A DNA stretch of 44,171 nucleotides from a virus. The notes below the pieces were generated by a model. That model was not told where the DNA came from. It did not search any database and saw only the letters and a list, made by a program, of their open reading frames with translations. The stretch is taken from the IMG/VR virus record IMGVR_UViG_3300033571_008549, positions 1 through 44,171 of that record, one strand, 5' to 3'. Below, one piece after another: positions 7,228 through 39,100 of this stretch (position 1 is the first letter of the stretch; every line of letters starts with the position of its first letter). The position numbers and the translations under genes are program-made.

Positions 7228-7923
7228 ATGAATGTAGATTTAACAGATTTGCTAGAAAGCAAAAGCGGAGGAAAAGGTGGAAAGAAAATCAATCCAGGAA
7301 ATCATGTACTAAAGATTAACAGTATTGTTACAAAAGAAGATGAAAGATATCCTGAGAAGAAATATATCTATCTGAATGTAGAAACTGAACCAATTGAAGA
7401 TTTTGAAGGTTTCTATATTGACAATGATCAATCTAAAGGTAGACATGCTGGTAAGATTGGTAAAATCAATGTTAATCCTTTTGGCTATAAGGATGGAACA
7501 ATGCCAAGTGGAGAACCAGTTTCCCAACAAAGATCAATGTTTATGTTCATTATTAATTTGTGCAAAACATTAGGTATTACTGATTGGGCAAAAGCACAAA
7601 ATAAAAAACATGAAAGTGCAGAATCTTTGATTGATGCATTCAATGCTACTGCACCATTTAAAGATATCTATCTTGAATATTGTGTTGGTGGTCAAGAATG
7701 GGTTAATTCAGAAGGATATACTAATTACAATCTTCAGTTGCCAAAAGCTTCTAATGGAAAGTATGCAGTATCTGGATTGAAAGAAGGAAAGTGTTTAGTG
7801 TTTGATCCTGCGGTTCACATTTACATTCCTAAAAACAAAGTTCAAGAAGTTAAAAACTTTGGAGATGATGATGATGATGATTTCACCATTCCTCAGTCAT
7901 CAACTACATTTAGCTTAGACTAA
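7228..7923 (+). CDS. Single-stranded DNA-binding protein (SSB-like)
   Basis: This 231-residue protein is best read as the phage SSB. It starts with a short helix and a flexible Ser/Gly/Lys segment (SKSGGKGGKK), continues as a beta-rich body with NPGNHVLKI, YIYLNVETEP and YLEYCVGGQEW strands like an OB-fold, and ends in a low-complexity acidic tail of six consecutive Asp residues (DDDDDDF) followed by Ser/Thr. Acidic tails recruit partner proteins in bacterial and phage SSBs. Its place directly after the Sak4-like ATPase, and before a strong hairpin terminator, supports this. Sequence identity to known SSBs is not obvious, so the call rests on architecture and neighbours. Confidence 0.65.
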   Translation: MNVDLTDLLESKSGGKGGKKINPGNHVLKINSIVTKEDERYPEKKYIYLNVETEPIEDFEGFYIDNDQSKGRHAGKIGKINVNPFGYKDGTMPSGEPVSQQRSMFMFIINLCKTLGITDWAKAQNKKHESAESLIDAFNATAPFKDIYLEYCVGGQEWVNSEGYTNYNLQLPKASNGKYAVSGLKEGKCLVFDPAVHIYIPKNKVQEVKNFGDDDDDDFTIPQSSTTFSLD

Positions 7924-12282: not shown

Positions 12283-13473
12283 ATGTCAAAAAAGAAAATT
12301 GAAAATAGTCAAGTATTGTTGAATGTTGAAGAGATGAAAGACTTTATCTCACACATGGTTGAAAATAATCAGTATATCCAAGCTCAAGGAAAAATTCCTG
12401 TAGCAATAAACATTGAAGGTGATGCAGGTCTTGGTAAAACTTCTGCTATTATGCAGTTGGGTAAAGAGATGAACATGCAAGTTGTAAAACTTAATCTATC
12501 TCAGTTAGAAGAATTAGGTGATTTAGTTGGTTTCCCGGTTAAAGAATTTGAGATTATGAATCAAGAAGGAAAAACCATGTGGATTAATGAAGCTCAGATT
12601 GATGCAGCTGTTAAGAAAGGATACAAAGTTGGAGCAAAAAGAATGTCTCATGCTGCACCAGAATGGATACAAGGTAAAGGAGAAGGTGGTTTCTTAATCC
12701 TTGATGATTATACCAGAGCTGACCATAGATTCATGCAAGCTACTATGGAGATTTTGGATAGACAAGAATATGTTTCTTGGAAACTTCCTAAAAATTGGCA
12801 TGTTATTTTGACTACTAACCCAGACAATGGTGATTACAACGTTACTAGTTTGGATGTAGCTCAAAAGACAAGATTTATTTCTGTTGGATTGAAGTATGAC
12901 AAAAGTGTATGGGCTAAGTGGGCAGAGACTGCAGGTATTGATGGTAGATGTATTAACTTTATGTTGATGCATCCTGAATTAGTAACTCAAAGTGTAAACC
13001 CTAGAGCAGTTACTACATTTTTCAATGCTATCAGTTCATTTAAGAACTTTAACCAAAGACTACCAATGATTCAAATGATTGGTGAAGGTTCTGTAGGTGT
13101 TGATTTCTCATCAATGTTTACTATGTTTATCAATAACCAACTTGATAGAATCATTTCTCCTGAAGACATCTTGACTAAAGATGAGCAGTATGTTATGAAT
13201 GCTTTGACTTCTGCAGTAGGAAAAGATGATGAGTTTAGAGCTGACATCTCAAGTGTTATTGCTACAAGATTAGTTAACTATTCATTATTGCATGCAGAAA
13301 CTAATCCGGTATCAGATCAAATGGCAAACAGGTTAATTAAACTTATTACAGATTGTAATGCATTTACAGATGACTTAAGATATTACATGGTCAAAGAGAT
13401 TGTAAATGGTAACAAAGTAAAGTTTGCAAAACTCATGATGAACAATGAGGTTGTTAAAATGGCAGTAAAATAA
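12283..13473 (+). CDS. MoxR-type AAA+ ATPase
   Basis: This 396-residue AAA+ ATPase has Walker A GDAGLGKTS at 46-54, a MoxR-like EELGDLVGFPV segment (76-86) where the helix 2 insertion lies, Walker B FLILDDYTRAD with Asp141/Asp142, sensor 1 ILTTNPDNGDYNV (Asn179) and a following QKTRFISVGL arginine-finger segment. MoxR ATPases form hexameric rings and act as chaperones with VWA partners; the partner gene is directly upstream. It is preceded by an A-rich leader (AAAAAGA repeats at 12272-12282) and followed by a strong hairpin. Confidence 0.85.
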   Translation: MSKKKIENSQVLLNVEEMKDFISHMVENNQYIQAQGKIPVAINIEGDAGLGKTSAIMQLGKEMNMQVVKLNLSQLEELGDLVGFPVKEFEIMNQEGKTMWINEAQIDAAVKKGYKVGAKRMSHAAPEWIQGKGEGGFLILDDYTRADHRFMQATMEILDRQEYVSWKLPKNWHVILTTNPDNGDYNVTSLDVAQKTRFISVGLKYDKSVWAKWAETAGIDGRCINFMLMHPELVTQSVNPRAVTTFFNAISSFKNFNQRLPMIQMIGEGSVGVDFSSMFTMFINNQLDRIISPEDILTKDEQYVMNALTSAVGKDDEFRADISSVIATRLVNYSLLHAETNPVSDQMANRLIKLITDCNAFTDDLRYYMVKEIVNGNKVKFAKLMMNNEVVKMAVK

Positions 13474-13517: not shown

Positions 13518-14825
13518 ATGACAGAACAAATATTACACATCACTACTAACTTAGGTTTTTGGGGTGAGATTAATAAACATAGCAATGTTGTAGTACATGT
13601 GCAAAGTAAAATAGGATCTTTTAAATATAGAGACATTATTGCTTTAGATAATAGTGAATATATTCCTCAAAAAGGTGATAAGGTATATTTTCTACCTGGT
13701 GTAAATGTACCAAGAGTTAAGTTTAAAGAAATAGCTCTTACATATGGTATTAAAACTGTAAGAAATCCAAATGAAGCTACTGTGTTTTTTGGAAATAAAT
13801 CTACTTCAGATAAAATAACAGATTATAACTGGAGTTATAAGATTGAAACTAAGTATTTAATTGATGCATTAGAAAATCAAACTCTTACTGTAGATGAGAT
13901 TTATATTGAAAAGTTAAAAACAGCATTAGAATTTTATACAAATGAGTTTATTGCTGTTGATCATCCTTTTGCTATGGCAATTGCAACTAATGGTGTACCG
14001 GTTTCTCAAGATAAAATACTTTCAATTTCAGAAGATTTTATTAAATTATCTGAAGCATTTGAAGGTAAAACTATTTATGAAGAATCCACCATTATAGATA
14101 AACTTAATGGTCAAGATGCAAGTGTTATTGATGCTCCAATGTTTGAGCAACTAAGTACAATGTTTCAAAGTACAGATGAGGATAATCATGTTTTAGCTAT
14201 GGAGATCCTTGCTAACTGTAAGTATTCTGCAAGTTTACCTTACATGCTATTACTGTTTAAAGACTTTAGTGGGCAGATGTATAATTCTCATACAAGAACT
14301 CATGTGAACTTTAAATCTTTAGTAGGTTGGTTAAACGGAAACATTCTTCACCGTAATACTCTTGATGACTTATGTGACATCTTAAAAGATAAAGGTCAGT
14401 TTGTTCCTGAAAATTTGGATATACTTCTTAATCATTCTCATAAAGATATCTTAGATAGAGGTGATTCTAAGTATTTTAAAATTAAAGTGATCACTTTAGA
14501 AGAAGAAGAGTTAGCTAATTTAAATACTAACTATGAGTACAAAACTGTTAATACTGATTATGTTCCTGTAGAAGTTGAAGAAGAAGTGTCTGATGAAGAT
14601 ATAGCAGCTGCATTTACTATGATGGAAAGAAATGAACTTAAGTCAGAGTTAATAGAGTTAGAAGCAAATTTAGCTAAGGGAGATTTAAAGGAAAATAAGG
14701 GACATGAAATTTCTGAAGAAGTTATTGTTGAAGAAGCTATAGAAGCTCCATTAGAAATAGAACCTGTATCAAATAACAATCAAATAACACAAACTAATGA
14801 GCATAATGACATTGACTGGTTCTGA
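13518..14825 (+). CDS. Conserved replication-region protein with SSB-like acidic tail
   Basis: This 435-residue protein is not one I can name. The N-terminal third is beta-rich (HSNVVVHVQSKIGSFKYRD, GDKVYFLPGVNVP) and carries a lone GIKTVRNPNEATVFFGN segment. The middle is helical with repeated HEAT-like patterns (VLAMEILANCKYSASLPYML, NFKSLVGWLNGN). The last ~90 residues are a disordered Glu/Val-rich linker (EVEEEVSDEDIAAAF and EVIVEEAIEAPLEIEP) ending in NDIDWF. This terminus resembles the acidic-hydrophobic tip of bacterial SSB (D-D-I-P-F type). It overlaps the next gene (the Cas4/RecB-like nuclease) by 29 bases. Confidence 0.6.
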   Translation: MTEQILHITTNLGFWGEINKHSNVVVHVQSKIGSFKYRDIIALDNSEYIPQKGDKVYFLPGVNVPRVKFKEIALTYGIKTVRNPNEATVFFGNKSTSDKITDYNWSYKIETKYLIDALENQTLTVDEIYIEKLKTALEFYTNEFIAVDHPFAMAIATNGVPVSQDKILSISEDFIKLSEAFEGKTIYEESTIIDKLNGQDASVIDAPMFEQLSTMFQSTDEDNHVLAMEILANCKYSASLPYMLLLFKDFSGQMYNSHTRTHVNFKSLVGWLNGNILHRNTLDDLCDILKDKGQFVPENLDILLNHSHKDILDRGDSKYFKIKVITLEEEELANLNTNYEYKTVNTDYVPVEVEEEVSDEDIAAAFTMMERNELKSELIELEANLAKGDLKENKGHEISEEVIVEEAIEAPLEIEPVSNNNQITQTNEHNDIDWF

Positions 14826-16898: not shown

Positions 16899-18797
16899 AT
16901 GAAAACACATTGGGTAATGGATTATGAAACACTTTCCGATTGTTTTATTGGGGTGTTTGAAAGTGTAAAATCAGAAGATAGACACATATTTGTGTGTCAT
17001 AAATCTAAGAATGATATACTTGAATTAGTAACTTTTTTAGAAAGAAATATTGCTTATAGTGAATGGCATGTTAGTTTCAATGGACTAGCATTTGATAGTC
17101 AAATAACTGAACACATTCTAAGAAATAAGGAACAACTGTTAGAGCAAGATGGAGAAACTATAGCTCAGTTTGTTTATGGTAAAGCTCAAAGTGTAATTCA
17201 AAAACAAAATGAAGGAGAGTTTGCTGAGTTTAGTCCTAGGGATCTTCAGATTAAACAGGTTGATGTTTTTAAACTTAACCACTGGGACAATGCTGCTAAG
17301 AGAAGTTCATTAAAATGGATTCAATTTAGTATGGATTGGCATAACATTATTGACATGCCTATTCACCACAGCAGCAGCATCAAAGCAGAACAAATAGAAA
17401 GTATAATTACTTACTGTATTAATGATGTTAAGTCTACTAAACAGATTATGAACTTGAGCAAGAGTCAAATTGATTTGAGAGGTAGTTTAACTCAAGAGTA
17501 TGGTATAGATTTATTTTCTGCATCTGAGCCAAGAATATCAAAAGAGTTGTTTTTACATTTCTTAAGTAAACATACTGGTATTAAAAAGTGGGATCTAAGA
17601 CAGTTAAGAACTAAAAGGGATAAGATTGTTGTAAATGATATTATACTTCCTTACATCCAGTTTAAGACAGCAGGATTTGAAAAATTACTAGAGAAATTTC
17701 AAGAGGTAGTTATCTTTCCAGGAGAAACTAAAGGAGGTTTTAAGTACTCTGTACAGTATAAAGGAATGAAGACTGATTTTGGTCTTGGTGGTATTCATGG
17801 TGCTAGGAGATCTGGTGTCTATACCTCTACAGCAGATACAGTAATTATGACTTCTGATGTTACCAGTTTTTACCCGAACTTGGCTATTAGAAATGGATGG
17901 GCTCCTGCTCATTTACCAAAAGAAGAATTTTGTGATTTGTATGAGTGGTTCTTTGATGAAAGAAGAAAGATTAGTAAAAAAGATATTAAGAATTATGTGT
18001 ACAAGATTATCTTAAATTCAACTTATGGTTTGAGTAATGATGAAAACAGTTTCTTATATGATCCTGAGTTTACAATGAGGATTACTATTAATGGTCAGCT
18101 TAGTCTTAGTATGTTGTATGAAATGATTTGTGAAGAGATTCCGGGTGCTATTCCATTAATGCAGAATACAGATGGTCTTGAGACAATTATTCCAAAAGAC
18201 AAAATTGACAAGTACATGGAGATTTGTGCTAGATGGGAAAAACTAACAAGATTAGAATTAGAACATGATAGATACAGTAAGATTATTCTAGGAGATGTTA
18301 ACAACTATATAGCAATTACAGAAGATGGTAAGTCAAAATGTAAAGGCCGATTTGAGTATGATAATTTAGCTCTTCATAAAAACAAGAGTTTCTTAATTAT
18401 TCCTAAAGCTTTACATACTTATTTTGTTGATGGTATTAAACCAGAAGATTTCTTAGCTAAAAATCAGAATATCTTTGACTATTGTGGTGGTGTAAAAATT
18501 AAAGGAGATTGGAAATTTGTTGAACATTTTGTTCAAGAACAAGAATATAATATTGCACCATTACAACATACAATTAGATACTTTATATCTAATTCCGGAT
18601 CTAAGATTGTTAAAACTAATCTACTTGATGGCCGGGAAATTCAAGTTGAATCTGGCAAATGGTTACAAACAGTATTTATAGATTATGTTGAGAAACCTTT
18701 TGAAGATTATAATATTAACTATGACTTTTACTTAGACAAAATTTATAGTGAAATAGAAAACTTAGAACCAAAAAGAAACCAATTAAAATTATTTTAG
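16899..18797 (+). CDS. Family B DNA polymerase with 3'-5' exonuclease
   Basis: This 632-residue replicative polymerase has proofreading motifs MDYETL (ExoI, Asp8/Glu10), SFNGLAFD (ExoII, Asn61/Asp66) and YCIND (ExoIII, Tyr172/Asp176). Polymerase motif A is SDVTSFYPN with Asp320, preceded by a GLGGIHG segment; motif B is KIILNSTYG (369-377); motif C is QNTDG (422-426), where Asn423 replaces the first Asp of D-T-D while Asp425 is kept. The fingers segment between motifs A and B is short. The protein ends in NQLKLF; QLKLF fits the bacterial sliding-clamp binding consensus (Q-L-x-L-F), implying use of the host beta clamp. It follows a terminator and has its own leader, with the next gene one base downstream. 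Confidence 0.9.
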   Translation: MKTHWVMDYETLSDCFIGVFESVKSEDRHIFVCHKSKNDILELVTFLERNIAYSEWHVSFNGLAFDSQITEHILRNKEQLLEQDGETIAQFVYGKAQSVIQKQNEGEFAEFSPRDLQIKQVDVFKLNHWDNAAKRSSLKWIQFSMDWHNIIDMPIHHSSSIKAEQIESIITYCINDVKSTKQIMNLSKSQIDLRGSLTQEYGIDLFSASEPRISKELFLHFLSKHTGIKKWDLRQLRTKRDKIVVNDIILPYIQFKTAGFEKLLEKFQEVVIFPGETKGGFKYSVQYKGMKTDFGLGGIHGARRSGVYTSTADTVIMTSDVTSFYPNLAIRNGWAPAHLPKEEFCDLYEWFFDERRKISKKDIKNYVYKIILNSTYGLSNDENSFLYDPEFTMRITINGQLSLSMLYEMICEEIPGAIPLMQNTDGLETIIPKDKIDKYMEICARWEKLTRLELEHDRYSKIILGDVNNYIAITEDGKSKCKGRFEYDNLALHKNKSFLIIPKALHTYFVDGIKPEDFLAKNQNIFDYCGGVKIKGDWKFVEHFVQEQEYNIAPLQHTIRYFISNSGSKIVKTNLLDGREIQVESGKWLQTVFIDYVEKPFEDYNINYDFYLDKIYSEIENLEPKRNQLKLF

Positions 18798-18798
18798 A

Positions 18799-19947
18799 AT
18801 GCCAAAGAAAATACAACATTGTGCAATGGGAGACTTAATTAGTGTTCCATTGCCAAATCATGCTGCTAGTTATACAACTATCAGTCACCAATTTGTTATT
18901 GATTATTCAAAACAACAGTTATTAGCTGCTGGTTTTGTTATTGTAGATGAGGAGTACAGAAGTACTGCAGATGGTCAAATTGCTCAAGGAATTTATAAGT
19001 TAAATTATAACAGTGATCCTGAGTTGTCAATGATGTTTGCTTGGACAAACAGTTACAACAAACAAGTAAAGTTTAAATGTTTAGTTGGTGCATATATTAA
19101 TAAGACTGATACTGTCATGGTATCTGGTGATATTAGTACATGGACTAGAAAACATACAGGAACTGCAGATGTTGAGACTCAACAGACTATAGATTCTCAA
19201 ATTGCAAATGCTCATATGTACTATAATCAATTAGTGTCTGATAAAGCCACTATGGAGAATGTTATAATGAACAAAAGAAGACATGCTCAAATGTTAGGTA
19301 TTCTTTTTGCTGAGTATAGTATCCTTACTACAGAACAAGCAAGTATTGTCCGTGGTGAAATGAGCCGTCCTTCAAGTGTATATAAAAACACAGATAGTCT
19401 TTGGGCTTTTTATTGTTATATTACAATTGCATTACAGTCATCTCATCCTAAAACATGGATGGAGGATCAAAGAATCTTACATTATTTTATTAGTACTGTA
19501 GGTAACTTTACTCCTGCAGCTGTTGTAGTTCCTGAAATAGAAGAAGAAGTTATAGTGGATCCATTAGAAAACAATTATGGTCAACCAGAAAACCAAACTA
19601 ATCTGTTAGTTCAGATAGCTGAAATGGAAGTAGCTGATACTCAAGTGGTACAAAAGGGTAGTGATTTTGATATAGATTTGCACCAGTCTGAAGAAATCAT
19701 TCTAGATACTATTGAAGCTGAGGAAGATCATGTAATTGTAGAAAATGAAATTTGGACAACTGAGGAAGAACCTCTAAAAATTGCTACAATTGTAGATGAA
19801 GAAATAGTTTATACTGATGCTGTAGGTAATACTTTTCAGGTACCTGTTCCTCCTTGTGTAGGTCATGATTTTGAATTAGAAGAAACATTTGATTTAATAG
19901 ACAAGTATGAGGAAGAAGAGGATGAAAATATTCCTGACTTTTTTTAA
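18799..19947 (+). CDS. Conserved phage protein, DUF932-like, with acidic SSB-like tail
   Basis: The 382-residue protein has a well-folded-looking first ~235 residues: MFAWTNSYNKQVKFKCLVGA (75-94), then a helical stretch with NKRRHAQMLGILFAEYSILT and a Trp/His-rich segment. The WTNS...K-x-K region and the later helices recall DUF932-type phage/plasmid proteins, a family of unknown function; this is tentative. From about residue 245 it becomes a long acidic, probably disordered tail, ending in EEDENIPDFF, which looks like the peptide tip by which SSB recruits partners (D-x-I-P-F). It sits directly after the polymerase. Confidence 0.5.
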   Translation: MPKKIQHCAMGDLISVPLPNHAASYTTISHQFVIDYSKQQLLAAGFVIVDEEYRSTADGQIAQGIYKLNYNSDPELSMMFAWTNSYNKQVKFKCLVGAYINKTDTVMVSGDISTWTRKHTGTADVETQQTIDSQIANAHMYYNQLVSDKATMENVIMNKRRHAQMLGILFAEYSILTTEQASIVRGEMSRPSSVYKNTDSLWAFYCYITIALQSSHPKTWMEDQRILHYFISTVGNFTPAAVVVPEIEEEVIVDPLENNYGQPENQTNLLVQIAEMEVADTQVVQKGSDFDIDLHQSEEIILDTIEAEEDHVIVENEIWTTEEEPLKIATIVDEEIVYTDAVGNTFQVPVPPCVGHDFELEETFDLIDKYEEEEDENIPDFF

Positions 19948-27000: not shown

Positions 27001-27129
27001 CATGAATACAGAATATCCAGGAAACTCTTCATTGAAATAAGTATCAACAAGGTTTTTAATTTTTATTTCACCAAACACATTGGTAAGTCTTTTAATTTCT
27101 GGATCTGAAAGATTTAAACATGATGCCAT
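21043..27129 (-). CDS. Giant virion-type protein with zincin, LysM and membrane helix
   Basis: This 2,028-residue protein probably is packaged in the virion and injected. Near the N-terminus the HExxH motif HEFGH (248-252) sits in NLIHEFGHPL, and a downstream Glu-rich segment (KEECLVQALE, about 60 residues later) could hold the third zinc ligand, giving a zincin peptidase. Residues about 400-1150 are charged and largely helical, likely coiled coil. A LysM domain follows at about 1710-1755 (YEVVAGDTLESIAKQFNMSP ... PNDTLEEGRTLKI), implying peptidoglycan binding. Near the C-terminus, GVYLALLAIAVTMIFGY (1869-1885) is a membrane helix. The gene starts one base inside the stop of the 4,449-residue gene (TAATG). 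Family assignment beyond these elements is not possible; the resemblance is to crAss-like phage internal proteins and 'polyvalent' proteins. Confidence 0.8.
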   Translation of the reverse strand: MASCLNLSDPEIKRLTNVFGEIKIKNLVDTYFNEEFPGYSVFMKSNSVKKELGMMNVAEIKSELGVNVRREIFTETQIKLNQAIDKKNTNNFRKGIAINYLAAYFPVGNSNQYTWIVTRRKGMLDAPAKLQRAIENGKVLSDIDRAIEEKKQLGTFQPEPRTVEEQMYMMSPKNEAGIKQARALEIAQKLGEKFKNAFGMEYQVISREAAEDLLINTKTPLKPNTASFYLNNKVYFIEGKFSLDNLIHEFGHPLIKGIAKENKTLFENLYFKLISTAEGKEIQQVVMNLYDELDPESDRFKEECLVQALEKDAMNKLDNIISDDAQFNSFMDLLMYAIKQIINRIMGRRVELKKLKSTTDLEELTDMLLGEDFVIENLEFELSDYAEFKNDVDEFINDLSNTDAKDFLEAINRFYTEALFQVGVLKNSPYKLKEKLQGKDGMRILRNLIDNLQTSQTVDPNLSQLDPEEVLRQIEEQQTDFKIRANAFINSVSEIEVFTKRIQTIINEMKSTNEHLTNEGMAKLAYYQQFLERQNTFLDEVKDTLKMEPDNSLNKKLLSIGERVRNTITEGRKLEKEFMKDFIVENSEFMNESINNSLKEKLNNILKADNFTEDEINQVAEQIENTKDIRRFDIKDLKLPRETRFAKALLDAVQDYFAKVITKEKITDLLEGKAGDLGIMSAMITPYSNIDDPLGSFVRYMKSKLSNAENKSYREWNDFMSTILPELKAAGYNPNDTGQLAKLMMFTDKIPSRNDKGEYEEFEVLSLIDKFKDWRSEVGRLNDALEKAREVGEVSAIRKAQKDIWEFNDKYMHRKYKKEVYDIQRIWFQDNRVYDPSTKSEIVVPADIATQAFLERQKALDQMSIYNKRPFTEMDDIHEVTESQIAKRDYDELYNVYDSFGNFKTGDDLQKVLVRLNHRKKSAGFNEFITDTNKFQRDLDNYVNVELASQGITYDESDPEKMKEFNNELQKFFDKNLKIATTPEYQQRIQEIYKQLREIGSKNSKADTVRELSEYYRQRSALVALVTDKDGEPNGAELSIDQMRLLKSIEDKIVELNESFDKKTGLTVDQKLRMNQYETKIKEGQDLTSVENEDYERLLDVKNDLGISSLELTNLKMLFRELSELTNTTPTDSYLKTFNDVVGDTEIQQLLPDNTIGLGAVASITTETADEFINSTQINQIKAANPAFAEWFDRNHYSKSYFDKKGKQVTKFYRVKAWSVTRPGNRDFYVNTKIINPATGVEIEVPGIPISKYTYTRVKDQYRTIPRNADKSDYIGTIIDNKGRYLPREYAAGDPNSAYDNKYANEEYYQLKAENGVRFKLLEAYKKQYLKIQEDKPRESKLYLDMPRFRKKGNLEYLQSGETKANFGSKLEGIKGGIISVFKKDAADAEHRFNFDADSLLVDTDLQGEPITEIPVRGLYRIKTNQVSQDVLTATATYLHSLNEQQTLIEEEPVAKALKNILNDPANAIKQVDKVSKQASKARGKQVFIPKGKNKFRRDNQRADAYSFYIDRLFYGQGNSEFQSENVWVTKLANNLMGSASRSFIAMDITSALKNKLGMTFQKMVETAGGQYLNAVSAAQGRIKAFNATIELSSKGIYTKGPKTLNLQMMEQFDPITGKTKQEFGKSSSRTFVKDFIDGTWMYDSRRLMEVESGLQLFFGMMDHKKIDQIQPDGSVKQIKYVDAFELNSDNQMVLKPGINPEWGTMPINYEVVAGDTLESIAKQFNMSPEELKEKNKLPNDTLEEGRTLKIADSKLFNDFKLKIQGVGKKLNGLIGQEDSPQADKFLMFRLFSFYRKYAIPMFLNRFQFDTSKENFGGEIYDWDMGTTSKGYYISAFQAMYQTLKQGTKYWQIMSKEEKSSLKKVLAEGVYLALLAIAVTMIFGYDRGDEDRFEKMQKREDQYGAFGWLANHALYQLIMVKKENESFIPVPGIGLDEWLEFTNSTTIVTGPTLDLYSKIMMDLWYMITGDEKGIYKSDVGPYDWQQKDEDGTYDYKLWNDLSGLFGIKGKNYAPIWAIRKNESFENLN

Positions 27130-30100
27130 TACTGTCCTAGTTTACATTTTTTATAATACTCTAATATTTCTTCAATCTTTAATTCAGGGTTCTTTAAAAT
27201 TTCACTGTTGAAGAAATTACTAAATTCTACAGTTTTTAAAATATCTGAATCAGATTGTTCAAATGTTTTTGTTTCTTCTGCTTCTACTGTTTCAGGAAAC
27301 AATTCATCTACAGTGATAATTTTGTCTTTACCTTTTGCTGTCAATGCATAAACTGTAAAGTTATCATATTTTTTTGAAAGAAGGTATTCCAAAAATGGTC
27401 TATCTGTTGAACTGTTTCCAAAAATAAATTTAGCATTCTTTGACATGTACACATCTAGTGCTTGTTTAACTGGAGCATCAAGAGGTCTATCTTTTAACGA
27501 GTAGTTTCTAGATAACATAATAACTGGACTTTGAATATTATCCAATGGAGCAACTAATCTAGCTCTACCTTTAGTTTGAGTTATTACTCCTGATTTTAAA
27601 TCCTCTGGTAGTAAGTCTTTAATTTTTTTCTGTACTACCCTAAGAGTTGTTTGGGCTGGACTAAAAGATTCTATTGATTCTACTAGAGCTCCATCAGCAA
27701 GGCCTCTCATCTTTCTATCTGCTGTAGTACCATCTTCTCCAAATACTTTTTGATACTCACCCATATCTACAAACTTATCAGATATATCTGCTTCTGTTGA
27801 TTCAACATATTCATTTGGAATATATCTGTTATAATCCCAAATATCTTTAATTCTTCCATAAGAAAGTTTAGCAGCAAATGTATTTCTCCAATCTGAAATT
27901 CTTAAAGTTATTCCAGATTTAAGTTGCATTTCTTTATATTTTGTGTTCTCTGGAGTTACTTCATCATAACTAAAAATATCAATTGCTTTAGCACCAATCT
28001 TTCCTGTGTGTGAATCAGTATTAGCAATATACTTACTAACTACTTTACCTTTAGAATCAACAATATCATAGTCAATAACTTTTCTACGAGACCCTTGAAA
28101 CTTAACATTTTCAATAGTGTATCCTTCTGGAGCTATCAACCATGTATCTGTTGCTAATCCGCCTTCTTCATCAAGTATTTCTCTTACATAAATACTATTA
28201 GGATACATACTTTCAAACACCTTTTTACCTTTAGCTCTTGTTAAGAAAGAAACCCAGTCAAGATCATGTACTTGATTTTCATTAGGTCTGTATATTGTAC
28301 CTTGTTCTGAAGCCGTTGTTGAACCAGCTAACATAAAATTTTCAGCCATCTTATCTACTATAGCAGTTGCAAAGGGGTCTGAATCTAGTGCGTCTTGAAG
28401 ATTTACAGGTACTACGGCTTTTCCTTCTGCACCTGGTTTATATTTACCGGCAGTAATTAAAGCTTTGTTTCTAGTCAATACTCCATCAACAATAACACCT
28501 ATGTTCTTATTGATTTTTTGAACTCTAACTTTGTTTATTACATTGAACAAGTAATCAATAATCAATTTGATTTTATCAATTAATGATTTTGGCATCTCTG
28601 TATTAGTTTTCTTATGCAGTTGTTCTGAGATTAGTTCTCCAATTACATTAAGAATTTCATCTTTAGATGCTGTTCTATATCTACTTTGTTTTCTTAAAGC
28701 TTCATATGTTTCAGTTACCAATGGATTATGCTGAAGCATGAAGGCAATAAACTTACCAGCAATGTTAGGAAGATCTTCACTATTGTCTTGTTGAACATAT
28801 GCTATCTTGTTAAGTATATCTGCAACAGCTAGAGTATCCATTCCTAGTTTCTCTTTGATGTCTGTGTATTCAAACTTAATACCAAAGGATGCTAAGTAGT
28901 TAACCAAAAGTTTATTTAATTCATTTTCAGTCTCAGGAACTATTCTGTTCAAAGCATTAGTACCAATTGGATCAATATCTACTTTACTAAAGTCATAAAG
29001 CTTAGCAAGATTTTTTCTTAGATATTTTTTAATCAGTTTTCTTTTAGGAGGGTTTCTTTTATTATAAACTTCTCCTCTAGCTTCCATTGCTTTTATTGCT
29101 TCATTTAATGATTCTCTAGATTGATTTAACCATGAATCTAAGTTTCTAATTACATTATAAATAATGTGAGGAGGTACTTTCAAATCATTAAGATTATCTC
29201 TTAACATATCAATATCTGCATTCTCTTCAAATTTGGTAAGTTGTGTCCAAATTACCTTGTATGCAGAAATTGCTAAACCTCTTTCACTTATTTTTTTAAT
29301 TTCATCACTGGTAACTTCTTCAATAGGTTTACCAAATAATCTCATTGAGATACCTGGATTTGATGCATACATATACTTATCCATATTTTCTCCTTTGAAA
29401 TTATAGTTAAATGTTGCATTACTCACTTGATAACCACTTCTCTTATATTTATCTGTAACATCTTTTGGTGCAAAACCAATTACATCAAATTGTTTAGAGA
29501 TATAAGGAATTGTTTCTGCAAGAAGTTCTTTACTTGATGGAGATGAACTCATATTAGAAACAAACACATTCATACGTGGTTCAAATGTTCCAAATATATA
29601 AGTGTCTTTATATTTAATTACATTACTGTTTTTAACATACCCAACAAAATTTTTGTAAGGTGTTGCAGAAGTAGCTCTTTCTTTGTTTCTTCCCATTAAG
29701 TTTACATAGTTCTGATATAGTTTCATAAGAAATGCTTCACTAGGTTCTTCACCTAATACATCAGATAATCTATTTCTAACCATTCCGGAAGGCTCAACTT
29801 CATCTATTGTAGTATCAAATTCAATAACAGTACCTACAGGAGTTTCTTTTGGTTTCTCTTGTAAATCTATTTCAAGAATTGGAACACTTAACACTTCTTC
29901 TTTAGCAAGTTTGTTTGTGTTACTTGTACTATTAAACTCTAATGGATTTTGTACATAGTTTTTAAAGTACTCTTTACCTTTAAATAAACTTTCAAATATT
30001 GTATCAAAAGTATTCAAGTTAAGATTTCTGTTTATAAAGTTTATGGATGCATTCTCAATTACAAGAAGAAACTGATCATAAGGAAGAACTTTATTTATAC

Positions 30101-33100
30101 CGTATTTACTATATCCAACACCATTCTGATAGATAGACATAATAGGAAGTATTTTAAATACCTCACTGATATAATTATTAGTTTCTACATCATCTTTATC
30201 TATAGCTTTTTGAACATTTGGATTGGCAAGATCTTCTAAATTAAGATTGTATGATTCAGCCAAATCTCCTTTTGCTAATGCTTTATTACTCAGTGTTAAA
30301 ATCTTTTCAGTTCCTCTTAAGTTAGCTTCTGACAATTGAAGTAAAACAGGATACTTATCTTTTAAATGAGGGTATTCTTGTATTACACTTTGTACAAGTT
30401 TTGTAAATGAATATCCTTCAGTTCCTACAATTGCTTTTTGATTAAAGCTATTAATTAAAGCTCTTTGATTTAAGAAAGTTCCATAATCTCTAGACTTTAA
30501 CCATCCAGTTTTTGGAGTCATTGAAACTTGAGGGAATTTATTTTTTATAAACTCTCTTTCCATTACAAATCTAAGGTAACTAGAGAAAGTATCAAACGGA
30601 TCATCCTGATCTCTAAATGGTGTAAGTCCTACATTCTTATATGACTCAGTACTTGCAGAACTATCTAAATATGTTTTATCAGTAAATTGTTTTCTAATAG
30701 CTGCTTCATTAATATAGAATGTATTGTTTTGAAATAGAATTCCATTTGTAAGTTCAGCTTTAGTATTAACCACTTCACTACCTCTATAAATTTCAGGTAT
30801 ATTTACTACTTGTCCTTGAGCATTGACCATGTTAGTCATATAGTTCTGGAAAATGTAATTAACAACTGAGTTTTTATATTCATTTATAAATTGTCTTACA
30901 CCATCCTGTCCTTTACCATACTTTTTAGTAATGCTTGAAGCATATGCAGAAATAGCATAAGTTACATAGTCATTAATCTTTTTGTTATTTCTCAGTTTGA
31001 ATAACGGCTCAAGTAAGTCAAGTACAATTTGATTATCAAAGAATGAATTTAAAATAGATTCATTTCTTAATTTATCAACTAGTGCAGGATCAATTTTTGA
31101 TAAGTCTGATAGATCTTCTAAAGCAACAGTTCTCTCAACAATTTCTTGAATTGTTTTAGATGTTTTAGTATCTGGATTAGCTTCTCTTTTTAATGCTTGA
31201 ATACCTTTAATTTGTTTTTCAATTTCAATAAAATGCAAGAACATATCTAATGATTTTAAATCAATAGGATATCCTCCAGCAAGTCTATTTCTCATGTCTT
31301 GTGAATCAAAGGTTCCTGTATTTGCAAGTGAAGCTGCAGTATAATAATTATTATTTGTTGTTAATGATGAAGCTGGTGTGTATAGATTAATATACTTTTG
31401 AAGATCTCCATCATACTGTCTTATAGCTTTAATATGATTTATACCTTTATTTCCTTTAGATAATGCATTATCAATACCCTCTTTAATTGCAGTACCTGTC
31501 ATTACTTTGCTTAACTCAACAAGCTCACCATCTTTTTTAATCAAATATTTTAATTGATATTTTTGAGTGTCAATTAAATCATCTGCAGTGTTTTTGATAT
31601 TAACTACATTAACTGCATTATAGATTGGTTGAGAAATTTCACTATTTACCAGTTTACTTATTGCAAGATTAGATGCTTCATATTTAATGTATGATTCAGC
31701 TTGAGGTGCTTGACCACTTAATTTACCATATACACTTCCTAAGATTTTTTGTTGTTTAACATATTCTCTTACCAAAGGTTGTGATACAAAATTGATTGCT
31801 TCATTTTTTGGAACACCAGCCTTAATCAAATAAGTCAATACAGGAATAACTTGTGTGTTTCCTTGAATAAAGAATACCCATGCATCTTTCTCAACATCCA
31901 CAAGACCATTCATCATTTGAGAGTATAGATCACTAACAGCATCCCCTTCAGCATTTAGAACATTTGATAATGATATGTTACCTTGTGGAGTTGTGTTATG
32001 ATTAAGTCTTAATCTCATATCCATGTTCTTCCCGTACTTATCCTCTACATATCTTTGTCTTCCTTCATCAAAGTAAACAGGTTTATATGTTAGAGGCATC
32101 TTAGCACCTAATGCATTAAATACCGGGCTTAATGAGTTCTCAATTGCTACAATACCTAAACCAGCTTTACCAACCATGTTTACATCATGTTTGTGCAAGT
32201 TGTACCCTACTTCAAGAACTCTTGTTGGACTAATTACTTTTTTAGCTTTACCTTTTTTATCAGTAATAAATCTATCACCTTCCTCATGTTCATTCTCAAA
32301 CTTATTATAGTCTACTACATCTGACTCAAGATCATCAGCAATGTCTTTTAATAAATAAGTTCCATTTGGTCTAACCAGGTTAGCATAGTTTTCAGGAAGT
32401 TCAAGAATACTTCTAATTGAAGTAATAAGATTGTTCTCTAATACCTTTTTTCGTTCTTCAATCAATCTTAATATCTGTTCTCTCTTCTTTGGATCATCAG
32501 ATTTTTTAATATTGTCAATTAAAGTTTTAAGACTTTTGTTTGTAAACTTAGTGTCATTTATTCTAAACTCACCATTCTCATTAATGCTTGGCATAAATGT
32601 GGTTAATTTATCAACGTCAAAGTCAGCTCCAGATTTTGCAACAATCTCAGATGGTGGTATAATAATATTACCTGCTGCAGGATTTAAGAAATGGTGTACT
32701 TCCATAAACTCCATTGAGTTTAATCCTTGTACTGGTATTCTAACTGCAGTTAATGTTACAGATTTTCTATTATTTCCTGTATTCAACCAATCCTCATCTT
32801 TAATAGCTTCATTAAGTCTATCTAAACTTGCATCAAAGTTCAATGAACCATCTTCATTTAAAACCTCAATAAGATTATTATCTGGATGTTTTACTTTAAA
32901 TAAGTTTTGGAAATCACCTTGAAGAGCAATAGCAACTTTCATTGCGGATGTATTACCTTCTTCATTATTGTAGAAAGGTAAGTTATTAGAACCTAAGTAT
33001 TTTCTTACTTCTTCATCTGTGGCACCTGTAAACTTAGAACCTTGATTCCAAAGTTTATTAGACATACCACTAGATACTTGTACTAATGCTTCACCTTTTA

Positions 33101-36100
33101 CTTTTTGTTTAACAAGTCTTTTCTCAATAAGAGATACTAAAATCTTTTCAATTTCATCAGCCTCTAAATGTAAAGACAAATCAGTTTTAACTGTGTTATC
33201 TTCATTTACATTTACAAACTTAATATGGTGTTCTGGTAAAGCTCTTCTTCCTAGTTCATTTCTTACAACTTGTAAGAAGTCACCAAGATTACCAATATAC
33301 TTACCATTCTTATATTCATATCCTATCTCCTCAAGTAACTGAGTTTTTAAGATATCCGTATAATCATCTACTGCATTTTCATATGCTTGAGCTGCTCCAG
33401 CTACATTAGGATTATTGATAATACCTTGTTCATATAATCCTTCAAGAATAAGTTTTCTTAACTGAGTAGAGAATACTGTTTTACCTTTATACTTATTTGG
33501 TACTGCAGTTACATTCTTAAGGTATTCAAGATACACAACATTTGGAGTGAATTCAATATCTGATTTAAGATTTTTTTGTTCCTCTTCATCTTCATAAATC
33601 TGATCAGGTTTACCGTCTTTTGTAATACTTGCAACTTTAGAACCTGTTTGGAATGTTGCATATTGAATACCAGACTTCAACATTTGGTGATGTAAAGATT
33701 CAAGATCAGAACCTTTTATAACTGAAGGAATCAATGGCATCAATGCAAATTTATGCATAGAATTTACAGGTAATCCTGTATTTGCTAAGTGTCCAAAGTT
33801 TTGTAATTTGTACACAGGAAAAAACTCAGTGATATCTGACATATCAACATCTTTACCTTGTATAATTTTTTGGAATAAAGCTTCTTGTTTATCAGACCAA
33901 TCATTCTCAAGATATCTTAAAGATCTGTAGGCATCAAAAGTTAAGTAACCTTGACCATCAGCTTCTTCCATTTTCTCATAGGTATCCATTTCAATGTCTA
34001 CTCTACGTTTTACTTCATTAGTTAAAGCTTCTCCTTTATAACCATTACTTAATCTTCTAGTGTAATCAGCTGTAAGACCTTTTCTAATTTGATCTCTGTA
34101 TACTGATTTTCTATTTATATCTCTTAGAATAGCTGTATTAAATGTACCATCATAATTCCAGTTTAATACACTATTTCCAAACTGAGGTAATTTTGATAAT
34201 GTATTAGCATAAGAAGTATTTTTTACAAAACCATTAATAAACTTTCTTGCATATACATCAGTTAAGAAACCACGGCCCCCAGATGTAGAACCTGTATTTC
34301 TTTTATGCATTTCTTCTTTTGCATGGTTATATTGTACAATGTCACCATACATTAAACTTGCAGTTTCAAAATTGTGTATCCAAGAGTTATAAGTAAATGC
34401 TTTTACTAGTGCTGTTTTAGCATCAACCTTACTCATACCAATTGCAGTAAGTATATTTAATAATTTAGGATCAACATAGTTTACTTCATTAAGATAGTTT
34501 TCATTTTTTACTGTCTGTCCATCAAAATAATTTTTGACCTCATTTGACAATATTTCTTTGAAATCTGGATTAGTTTCAATGTAATCTTTGATGGTACCTG
34601 TTTTGATATTATTGTAGATAAATTCTTTGGTATCATCAGTCAACACATTATCAAATGCTGTAAACACTTGACCTGCATATACTTTTGGATCACCATTAGA
34701 ATCATATTCTAAAACTCTATTATAACCAACATAGTTTTTATAGGTATCAATATTGTTATTGAATTTTTGGATTCTTTCAAGTTCAGCATCCATGTAGTCA
34801 ATAAAAAATTCATCTATTGAGTATTGTTCTGCATTTCCGTTTGGAGCAAACATATCAATATCAATATACAAATGTCCATCTTCTCCTTTACCCATTCCTC
34901 CAATAATGTCACCTTCAACTCTAACACCAAAGGATGATGATTTAGAAGCATGTCTCATAAATTCTTGTAGACCACCTTTTAACATCATGTGCATCTCTTG
35001 TAAGAATTTACTATAAACATCTAATGAAGTTGTGTTAGCACCTTCTGAACCTTCAGCAATCTGAGTTCCGGATACATAGTTTAACTGTAAACTCTTTCCA
35101 TCCCTCTTCTCAAAACTGTTAGTATCAATAGCAAAAATACTATTAAGAATCTTAGATCTTAGAGTAAAGGAATTCACTTCAGGATTAAGATAACTCATAT
35201 ACTGCAGCTCGTCTGTTCCCCACAAATCTTGTAATTTCTTAGCTTTATTAATACCATGCACTATCATACTCACAGTATTGTCCTCAATATGTTCAGAAAC
35301 TAAATTTCTTTCTGCATTAAGTACACTAAAGTTTGAAGAGTCAGCACCATATTTACCTTGTAACTCTGCAAATCTTTCAATGATATTTTTTTGTTTAAAC
35401 TCTTTATCAGAAATAACACCAGCAGGAATACCATTCTTGAGTACACCAACAGGATCAAGTTTAAAATCACCAATAGCTCTTAACTGTTTACTTGTTACTT
35501 TATTCTTTGGAATATTAGATTCTTTCTCAAGTTCAGCTAATTCTTTAATTGCTTTAAAAGTATACTCTAAACTATAGTATTTTTTGTTTGCCGTTAATTC
35601 ATTTTTAATAACTGATAATTCATCCATGTATAGACCAATAGCTCTTGCAAAATCAAATGCTTTTGTACTATCAAATTCTCCATTATCTTTTCTTGCAAAC
35701 TTTTCAGCAACTTTTTGAAGATCTAAAGTATTGATATTGTTAACTCTATTAACATAAGAATTATCTGTATCAGCTTTAAATTTATTCTGGAATTTTCTAA
35801 GGACACTAGAAATTTCAATAGAAGCTTCAGTAACTTCTAACTCATAACCTTTACCTTCTTTAAATGCCGTAAGTTGAATGTATGTAATCCTAGGTTTTTT
35901 AAAGTCTTGCCAAAAAGCAGAACTAATTTTAAACTCAGAACTATCCAATAACTTTGTAGGATCCGGAAGTTTATAATCAAGTAACTGTTGTAATTCAGGA
36001 AAGGTAAGAGCAGCTGTCTTAAGTTCATTATACATTTCAACTCTGTCCTTAATACCACCAATAGCTCTGGTTACATTATTCCATGTTGTTGTAAAATCAG

Positions 36101-39100
36101 CAAGTTCTTTAAACCCAAGTTTATTATAAACATAGTTTTTACCACTTTTCTTAAATAAACTTTTTAAAATGTACAGTGTTTCTTTACTTGCAAGTTCTTG
36201 AAGTGACTTATCATTAACAACTTTATCACCATACCTTTCACTTGTTTGTGCTTCTTCTGCTACTGTTTTATTTTCTTCATCATCTGCATAGTCAATCTCA
36301 ATAAACTTCTGGCGTACAATATCAAATGTACTATTTTCAATATGATATTTAACTAAACCTTTTGTTTCATCACCAAAGTTTTCTAAACCAAGTTTTAGAA
36401 TTCTTGCAACATCTTCTAACTGGTCTACTTTTACAGCATCATTTTCAGTTTTTGCAGTCTCAAGTTCAGTTAAAACAGCATTGTATCTTTTTTGTAGTTC
36501 TTCTTGAACCATTTCATAAGCTACCTTTTTGTTTCTTGCATCAGTAAGAATTTTTACTGCACCAGCTTTACTTACAATTTTATCATCATTTTGTTGTGCA
36601 GCAAGGGCAACACTATCAGCATAGACTTTATCAATTGTATCTGAAATAATAGAGTCAATACTATTTACTAATTCAGTAGAGTCTTGAAAGTTTAATACTT
36701 CAGCTTTTTTATCTTCTACTGAACTAACACCTCTGTCAAGCATACTAAACATAGCATTGTCAACATTTGGCTTATACTTGTTTAATATACTTGGATCCCC
36801 ACTGGCCATGTATAAGTTATCATATAGTTCTTTGACAGCAGGTACAAGTGTTACTTCTCCGGCTACTTCCTCTCTCTTGAAGTTCTTATTAAAAAGTCCT
36901 TTAATAAAGTTTAATATTCTTCTAAATAAGCTATTTCTAGTTGGAGCACCTTTTGTTGCTTTTGGATTTAAAATATAACTTCTAAAATCTTCAGCTAACA
37001 TTTCTTCTAGTTCAAAGAAAGACTTATCTATATTAGGTTGATTACCTTTTGCATCTTTAAAGTTTTTAACTTCATTATACAATTTAGTTTTCTCTTCTTT
37101 AGTTAAAAATAATTGAGAGAATCCATGCCATGCTTCATGGTAAACATCAACCATAGTACCACCAATCTCTGTATTGATATTAATACTGGTATCAGCTAAG
37201 GTAGCTCCATTAATAATGAAACTTGCAAATGAATCTGAGTTAACAATGTTTCCTATTTGAGTAAGAGAAATAATTTTAGATAACGGGCTCTTAGACCACC
37301 ATTCTTGAGCAGCTTGTACTTGTTCTTTAGTTACACCATTTGGCAACTTAGCACTTCTATCCCATTGAAATCTATTGAATATTTTACCTACTTCAGTATT
37401 TTCAGTCTCTGGCCCTTTTGTATCTGTTGGTTGAATACCTTCTTCTACATTTGGAACAGTCGGAAAGTTAACACTTGACTCACCAATATTACTTTTGGGT
37501 ACTTCTGTTTCAACACTAGTAGTTGGTTGAGTAGATTTACTCCAAGTACCAATCAACTGACCATCAACTGTAATTTCAGAGTAACTGTAACCTTTAGCTT
37601 CCATATTAGCATAAAGTCTTTTCTCTCCTGTGTTATAATTACTAGCATTAGTATAGGCTTTGTTATCTGTAAGAATTGTTGCACCAGCTTCTACAGCTTT
37701 AATAGCTTCTTTAATAGTTTTATTTTGTTGGGTTTTTTGTTGTTCTTCAGTACCTCTTTTACCTCCAATTGATACAAATATTACATCATTATCAGAATAG
37801 TTACCTGTATTAGCAAATGATCCTGCTTGTTGTCTATATGTTTCTGTTGAACTTCCAGTAATACCTTCTCCAAATCCTATAAACTGAGTAGCAATACTTG
37901 CTTTAGAAATTGCTTTTTTATCAGCAGCTTGTATAGGTGTAACTGTAAAAATATTTTTTTTATCAAAGTTTTTACTACTAATAGATAATTGAGTAATATT
38001 AAATCTAGCTTTAAAAGCTTGTTCATTTTTAACATTACCTTCATTAGTTCTAAACTCCCAATCTTTTGGTGCAAGAACTGTAGTTGGAATACCTAATTTT
38101 ATACCTGCTTTAGCACCAGCTTCATCAAATCCAGTTTGACCACCACTTCTTATTAATGTAATTTTGTTTTTAAGGTTTGGTGAATTAACTATACCATATA
38201 ATAAATCATAAGTAAACTTATCAACTTCTTCTTGAGTACGACCTTTCATGTCATATATACCGTTCCCTGCAATATTTAAAGTTTTTGCATTTACTGTATT
38301 TAAGGCTTTTACAATATTTTCAATTGCCTTTGACATGCTGTCTTTACTAATAGCATTCAAAGGTATACCATTTGTTTCTATTGTTCTATAAACCTTACCT
38401 TGTTCTTTTACAGATTTTTTAGTAAGTTTTTCCCCAGGAGTTTCAAAGTTATCTCCTAAATGTATTGTTGCATCAGCAGAAGCATTGATTCTAGTTCTAG
38501 CTGGATAACCACCAGTTTGATTTTCTTCAAAATTAATTGTATTATTTTGAGTAGGTAAACCATTATCAACTTTTTCCTTAGCCTTATTCAGAGATTCTGT
38601 AAATGCTGTATTAGGTCTAAACATAATATAAGAGTTGAATACTCCTAAACTATTCTCAGGAGTAAACACTACATCAGCAGGGAACTGTTTAATAAAATCA
38701 GTATAATTTGCTCTTACAAACTTACCAGTAGCCGCATTATAATCTAAAAATGTTTTACCATTAAGCTTAGGTTCAAACTTCATTTTAGAAGATTGAATTT
38801 TTTCTTTATCATAATAAGCATTGGTAAGTACTTCTTTTATTTTATCCTTTGCATCAGCTGCAGATAAGTCTAACTTAATAGGGGCAAATGCTTTATTTAA
38901 CTCATCTAAGTTTACTTTTTGATTATTTTCTTGAGCTTTTTTTTGTGCTTTTGCTTTTAACAGTATTGTTTTATCATATGTGTAAGGTGTATAAAAGAAA
39001 GATATCACCTGTGATGATTGGTTAAAATTAATTTTATGTCTTTGAACTTCAGGATCTAAATTAACAGTAAACTGATTAACATATATAAATTTATTAGCAT

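Follow-up and report, generated by a model that had tools for sequence, protein, structure and literature searches.

The family B DNA polymerase analysed here ends in the pentapeptide Q-L-K-L-F, which is highly likely to be a genuine bacterial sliding-clamp-binding motif and would tether the enzyme to the DnaN of the host. As this conserved peptide has the form that fastens proteins to the bacterial clamp, the phage very probably borrows the clamp of its host and makes none of its own. The sequence-only reading had proposed such borrowing for the phage replisome, and the conservation of the motif, together with the failure to find a clamp in 57 relatives, supports that proposal. CrAss-like phages belong to the most abundant viruses of the gut and have genomes of roughly 100 kb. 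Their processive copying is not described in the literature searched, and for a good part of the group the tail would supply a specific answer. Docking peptides of this kind are known; no earlier report of one carried by a crAss-like polymerase was found in the literature searched.

The polymerase and its genomic setting

The window, i.e. the whole stretch of DNA that was analysed, is a 44,171-base fragment. Its phage is assigned by sequence comparison to a deep crAss-like (Crassvirales) lineage, represented here solely by contigs from metagenomes. The crAss portal and capsid were searched for in relatives, the window being without that half of the genome. A crAss001-like portal was found in all nine relatives tested from the clade of the window (E 9e-19 to 3e-26), and the crAss001-like major capsid protein was weakly matched in relatives of that clade (E about 1e-6); no crAss001-type portal or capsid was found in three non-crAss phages. 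The replication genes follow the order of crAss001 in outline (DnaB, Sak4, SSB-like, primase, ... exonuclease, polymerase). When bacterial genomes were searched for a possible host, a single match was returned, a 4.1-kb contig (CAKZOX010000073.1, L081) in a Campylobacteraceae MAG. This contig carries a polymerase of the second clade described below and is possibly misbinned phage DNA; it is the sole host hint, and the match was too weak for Campylobacteraceae to be assigned as host.

The polymerase product (Table 1) matched phrog_1252 in a profile search (E 3e-138) and Pfam DNA_pol_B (E 3.8e-4). The exonuclease and palm motifs and the PolB fold are present, with D8, E10, D320 and D425 among the invariant residues. 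Its AlphaFold2 model (mean pLDDT 91.4, pTM 0.86) matched archaeal PolBs, Pol alpha and E. coli Pol II in a Foldseek search of the PDB. The final residues are ...NLEPKRNQLKLF, and the C-terminus reads NQLKLF followed by a stop. The sequence-only reading had claimed that the polymerase ends in QLKLF like the beta-clamp consensus, and this was borne out by the codons CAA TTA AAA TTA TTT and the TAG that follows them. QLKLF carries glutamine at position 1, a hydrophobic residue at position 2, leucine at position 4 and phenylalanine at position 5, as the clamp motif demands.

Table 1 Features of the polymerase gene and its 3' end
Feature	Position	Strand	Basis or remark
Family B DNA polymerase, 632 aa, crAss-like PolB group	16899..18797	+	phrog_1252, Pfam, AlphaFold2 and Foldseek
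Last long helix of the polymerase fold, residues 608-622, NYDFYLDKIYSEIEN	18720..18764	+	DSSP on the model; alignments
Variable flexible linker, residues 623-627	18765..18779	+	Free variation before Q; pLDDT 66 (block 621-630)
Putative clamp-binding motif Q628-L-K-L-F632, C-terminal	18780..18794	+	Q628, L631 and F632 invariant, L629 in at least 90% (40 PolBs); pLDDT 49 for the last two residues
TAG stop directly 3' of the motif	18795..18797	+	C-terminus left free, as it is in Pol II and PolC

The TAG is taken to be a genuine stop because 7 of the 38 genes of the window terminate in TAG and the polymerase genes of all 80 close relatives have TAA at this place; read-through was thus found unsupported in the clade of the window. 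The ATG of the next gene lies at 18799, one base past the polymerase stop. Among more distant relatives of the Suoliviridae type, many polB genes (L110-L183) end in LF-TAG with the next codon again a stop. In those relatives whose portal gene contains 5-17 in-frame TAG codons, read-through of TAG would lengthen the motif by one residue.

Model confidence drops past the last long helix in the two steps given in Table 1, from which we infer that the motif sits on a flexible tail. The model would thus place it in a flexible, exposed terminal segment, as expected of clamp-binding peptides. Since most phage PolBs outside the tail-bearing group stop at or shortly past this helix and lack the motif, the tail appears to be an add-on to the common PolB fold. 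The length of the linker is not the same from clade to clade.

The QLKLF of the polymerase is the sole instance of QLxLF, and of Q[L/M/I]x[L/M/I]F, among the 14,468 residues of the 38 main ORFs of the window, and the tight pattern revealed no second clamp motif elsewhere in its proteins. The number expected by chance at 38 C-termini is 0.0005 for QLxLF, given the composition of the window itself, and 0.008 for the relaxed pattern. In 160 related loci, 2,253 ORFs reach a length of 80 aa or more; 160 of these have a clamp-type C-terminus, one per locus and all of them polymerases (159 of polymerase length, the remaining one cut at a contig end), and no non-polymerase protein among them has one.

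Several other products of the window have conserved or unusual features. The 382-residue protein encoded directly downstream of the polymerase (18799-19947, + strand), which gave no family match, combines a conserved core with an extended disordered tail that finishes in an acidic stretch and FF/F; its C-terminal F is conserved in 74 of 74 relatives, and the tip is reminiscent of the SSB C-terminal tip. A 435-residue protein (13518-14825, + strand) ends in [D/G]-[I/F/L]-[D/E]-W-F, with WF in 75 of 75 relatives, and this end looks like another docking tip. The product of 7228-7923 (+ strand), encoded between Sak4 and the primase, has an acidic stretch and the end SSDF[S/N]LD in 48 of 50 relatives; from its context it is likely to be an SSB. 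On the opposite strand, 27129-40478 encodes a 4,449-residue protein flanked by giants of 2,028 and 1,139 residues, the former without a tblastn match among GenBank phages. The 4,449-residue protein contains SGADFDVDKL, which we take to resemble the catalytic motif of the crAss-like virion RNA polymerase.

Conservation and distribution of the motif

Each of the 80 nearest polymerases in IMG/VR, at 72-82% identity, terminates in Q[L/Y][S/K/T]LF. Positions 1, 4 and 5 are Q, L and F in every one of them; position 2 is L in 78 and Y in two, and position 3 is S in 57, K in 18 and T in five, while the three residues upstream of the glutamine are highly variable. A second clade (L081-like, 54-59% identical to the polymerase of the window) kept the motif in 80 of 80 cases, and a third (Suoliviridae type, including Bohxovirus and cr53_1; 25-33% identical) in 74 of 77. 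The three exceptions of the third clade, QLSLW (L184), QQELF (L173) and QPMLF (L186), are not, as we read these sequences, losses of the motif. The polymerase gene of L184 is TGA-recoded, with seven in-frame TGA codons, and the “stop” after QLSL is itself a TGA, giving QLSLW. The conservation of the terminal pentapeptide, which the sequence-only reading had singled out for checking, therefore holds in all three clades, distant relatives included.

In an alignment of 40 diverse PolBs (25-82% identity), Q628, L631 and F632 are among just 44 invariant columns, many of which are known active-site positions. The three residues coincide with positions 1, 4 and 5 of the clamp motif, reported to be the most important for binding, and the freedom at position 3, which accepts S, K, T, E, D, R, Q, A and N across clades, corresponds to a known tolerance of the clamp motif (PMC12309361, PMC3919608). 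These comparisons show that the motif is strongly constrained in each of the three crAss-like PolB clades.

Outside these clades the terminal motif was absent from all eight PolBs of phi14:2-like Steigviridae, from the Intestiviridae PolBs (p-crAssphage, crAss002, Rudgehvirus), from the one Crevaviridae PolB examined and from the PolBs of the sampled non-crAss phages; no Intestiviridae relatives were found in IMG/VR. No terminal motif was found either in PolA-type Steigviridae, the PolA enzymes of crAss001-type phages. Other peptides are seen in some of these enzymes. The phi14:2 PolB (L082, 3182-3940) has an internal QLNIF 59 residues before its end, possibly a relocated motif. In the Intestiviridae PolBs of crAss002, Rudgehvirus and p-crAssphage (L274, L275 and L084, respectively) the tail is basic and contains GM.N.[L/I]F close to the C-terminus, which may be a degenerate clamp motif lacking the glutamine, and the Crevaviridae PolB (L277, cr127_1, NC_055886.1, 2190-3314) ends in DEDDSDDLPFN, resembling the acidic tip of SSB. 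The tail peptides thus differ by Crassvirales family, being QLxLF, SSB-tip-like in the one Crevaviridae PolB, or GM.N.[LI]F in Intestiviridae.

On a PolB tree built without the tail columns, tail presence requires two changes, as tail-less groups lie between the two tail-bearing ones, but grouping all tail-bearing enzymes in one clade was not rejected (AU p 0.36). Independent origins of the tail were therefore not retained, and the tree does not distinguish among gain, loss and transfer.

Host clamp or phage clamp

The sequence-only reading had stated that no clamp gene is seen here. Because the record of the window is a 44-kb fragment, in which a clamp search covers under half a genome, the search was extended to longer relatives. 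The model used for processivity factors, phrog_947, recognises the DnaN of ten bacteria, the PCNA of three archaea and two phage clamps. Across 57 motif-bearing records (84-177 kb, possibly with near-copies among them) it returned no clamp of DnaN/PCNA type, and TIGR00663 returned none in 35 of these records. A PF02916 search, whose positive control did not work, was excluded from these counts. The statement thus gains from the longer relatives what the window could not give it, and a phage-encoded clamp elsewhere in the genome, which would count against host borrowing, did not appear in any of the 57. The same searches detected clamps in phage CAjan and Vibrio phage 1.089, neither of which has the tail motif. 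A strict rule of “tail or own clamp” was not observed: of the 19 PolB phages sampled that lack the motif, 17 have no detectable clamp either. Absence of a clamp alone therefore does not demand a tail, and the tail is one solution for clampless PolB phages, not an obligatory one.

We consider it improbable that the tail binds a highly divergent clamp or processivity factor encoded by the phage, as the C-terminal peptide of T4 gp43 does on gp45. Many proteins in these genomes are unannotated, and phage clamps can diverge far: that of Vibrio phage 1.089 scores only E 1.7e-12 with phrog_947, and a highly divergent one could slip past HMM searches. The model is nonetheless broad enough to detect archaeal PCNA and matched nothing in the 57 records, and the motif has the bacterial DnaN form and not that of a PIP box. 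An AAA+ protein (12283-13473) gave weak clamp-loader matches (phrog_168, E 7.8e-6; RFC large subunit, 1e-4), which would favour a phage clamp, but its best family is phrog_1297 “ATPase” (1.9e-32), and with the adjoining metallopeptidase/VWA-like protein it looks like a MoxR-type pair; it was rejected as a clamp loader. The 382-residue neighbour of the polymerase was likewise rejected as a hidden clamp, its model comprising a mixed alpha/beta domain and disorder, not clamp-like and without a PDB match at E<=0.001.

The conserved motif would also fit a tail that docks on DnaN chiefly to commandeer or obstruct the host replisome and not for phage processivity, and an abundant phage protein carrying a strong consensus motif would be expected to compete with host Pol III for the clamp. 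This is very unlikely in our judgement, as the motif is fused to a replicative polymerase, at the position that serves processivity in Pol II and PolC, and a separate small inhibitor would suffice for blocking. That the pentapeptide is kept for polymerase folding or for another partner, its likeness to a clamp motif being coincidental, we regard as scarcely credible. Although conservation by itself names no partner, the tail is detached (pLDDT 49-66) and its linker variable, many related PolBs stop at the preceding helix without the pentapeptide, and the invariant positions coincide with the clamp-contact positions of known motifs.

In clamp-bound pentapeptides the L-F enters the hydrophobic pocket of DnaN and the glutamine contacts subsite 2 (PMC3716654). 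Given this known binding, as in Pol II and PolC, we conclude that the phage polymerase would be tethered to a host clamp loaded by the host. The host clamp loader would load DnaN (beta), Q628 would enter subsite 2 and L631/F632 the hydrophobic pocket, and the polymerase would be held behind the primer end, gaining processivity as do E. coli Pol II and B. subtilis PolC. The host would give the clamp and its loader, and the phage the polymerase, DnaB-type helicase, primase and SSB-like protein.

Polymerase exchange and known systems

Exchange between PolA and PolB in Crassvirales has been called enigmatic (PMC7886860), and the word “clamp” does not occur in two papers on polymerase switching (PMC7886860, PMC11348598). 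One record (G020, L167) combines a capsid and portal of crAss001 type (65% and 52% identity) with a tail-bearing Suoliviridae-type PolB and no PolA, and a second (G060, L168; capsid 46%) is similar, again lacking PolA and carrying a tail-bearing PolB; the polymerase of crAss001 itself is a PolA that has no terminal motif. By their gene content, both records represent a polymerase swap between crAss families. A polymerase plugged into a host factor would need no co-transferred phage clamp, and a QLxLF PolB could replace PolA in another backbone in one step because the host supplies the processivity factor. The tail bears on why crAss-like polymerases are exchanged so often. We suggest, tentatively, that a host-clamp docking tail may make PolB a self-contained, swappable module and so help to explain PolA/PolB switching in Crassvirales.

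Several known systems resemble this arrangement in part. T7 DNA polymerase borrows host thioredoxin as processivity factor, as the present enzyme would borrow a clamp, but is a PolA and uses thioredoxin in place of a ring clamp. The T4 gp43 peptide is PIP-like, and T4 differs from this phage in encoding its own clamp and loader. The two have in common a phage PolB tethered, or here putatively tethered, to a clamp by a C-terminal peptide (reference 52 of PMC7544198; PMC2988020). The DNA polymerase of WSSV is also a viral PolB proposed to sit on a host clamp, shrimp PCNA, via a short peptide, although in a eukaryotic virus, with PCNA/PIP-box chemistry and from a docking model only (PMC3984155). 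IS transposases bind the host beta clamp and so set a mobile-element protein on host DnaN, as would this phage, but are not replicases (PMC4549789). B. subtilis PolC shares a C-terminal motif (QLSLF) with a free carboxylate on a replicative polymerase, and this motif is essential and binds DnaN with a Kd of about 3.8 uM (PMC12309361); unlike the phage PolB, PolC is a cellular enzyme of family C. The likeness to E. coli Pol II pointed out in the sequence-only reading proved correct: this enzyme too is of family B and carries Q-L-x-L-F at its extreme C-terminus (QLGLF), crystallised as a peptide with the clamp (PDB 3D1E; PMC3716654). It differs in being chromosomal, in using the clamp of its own cell and in belonging to a different PolB clade, the crAss-like PolBs falling in a PolEpsilonN-like clade (PMC7544198).
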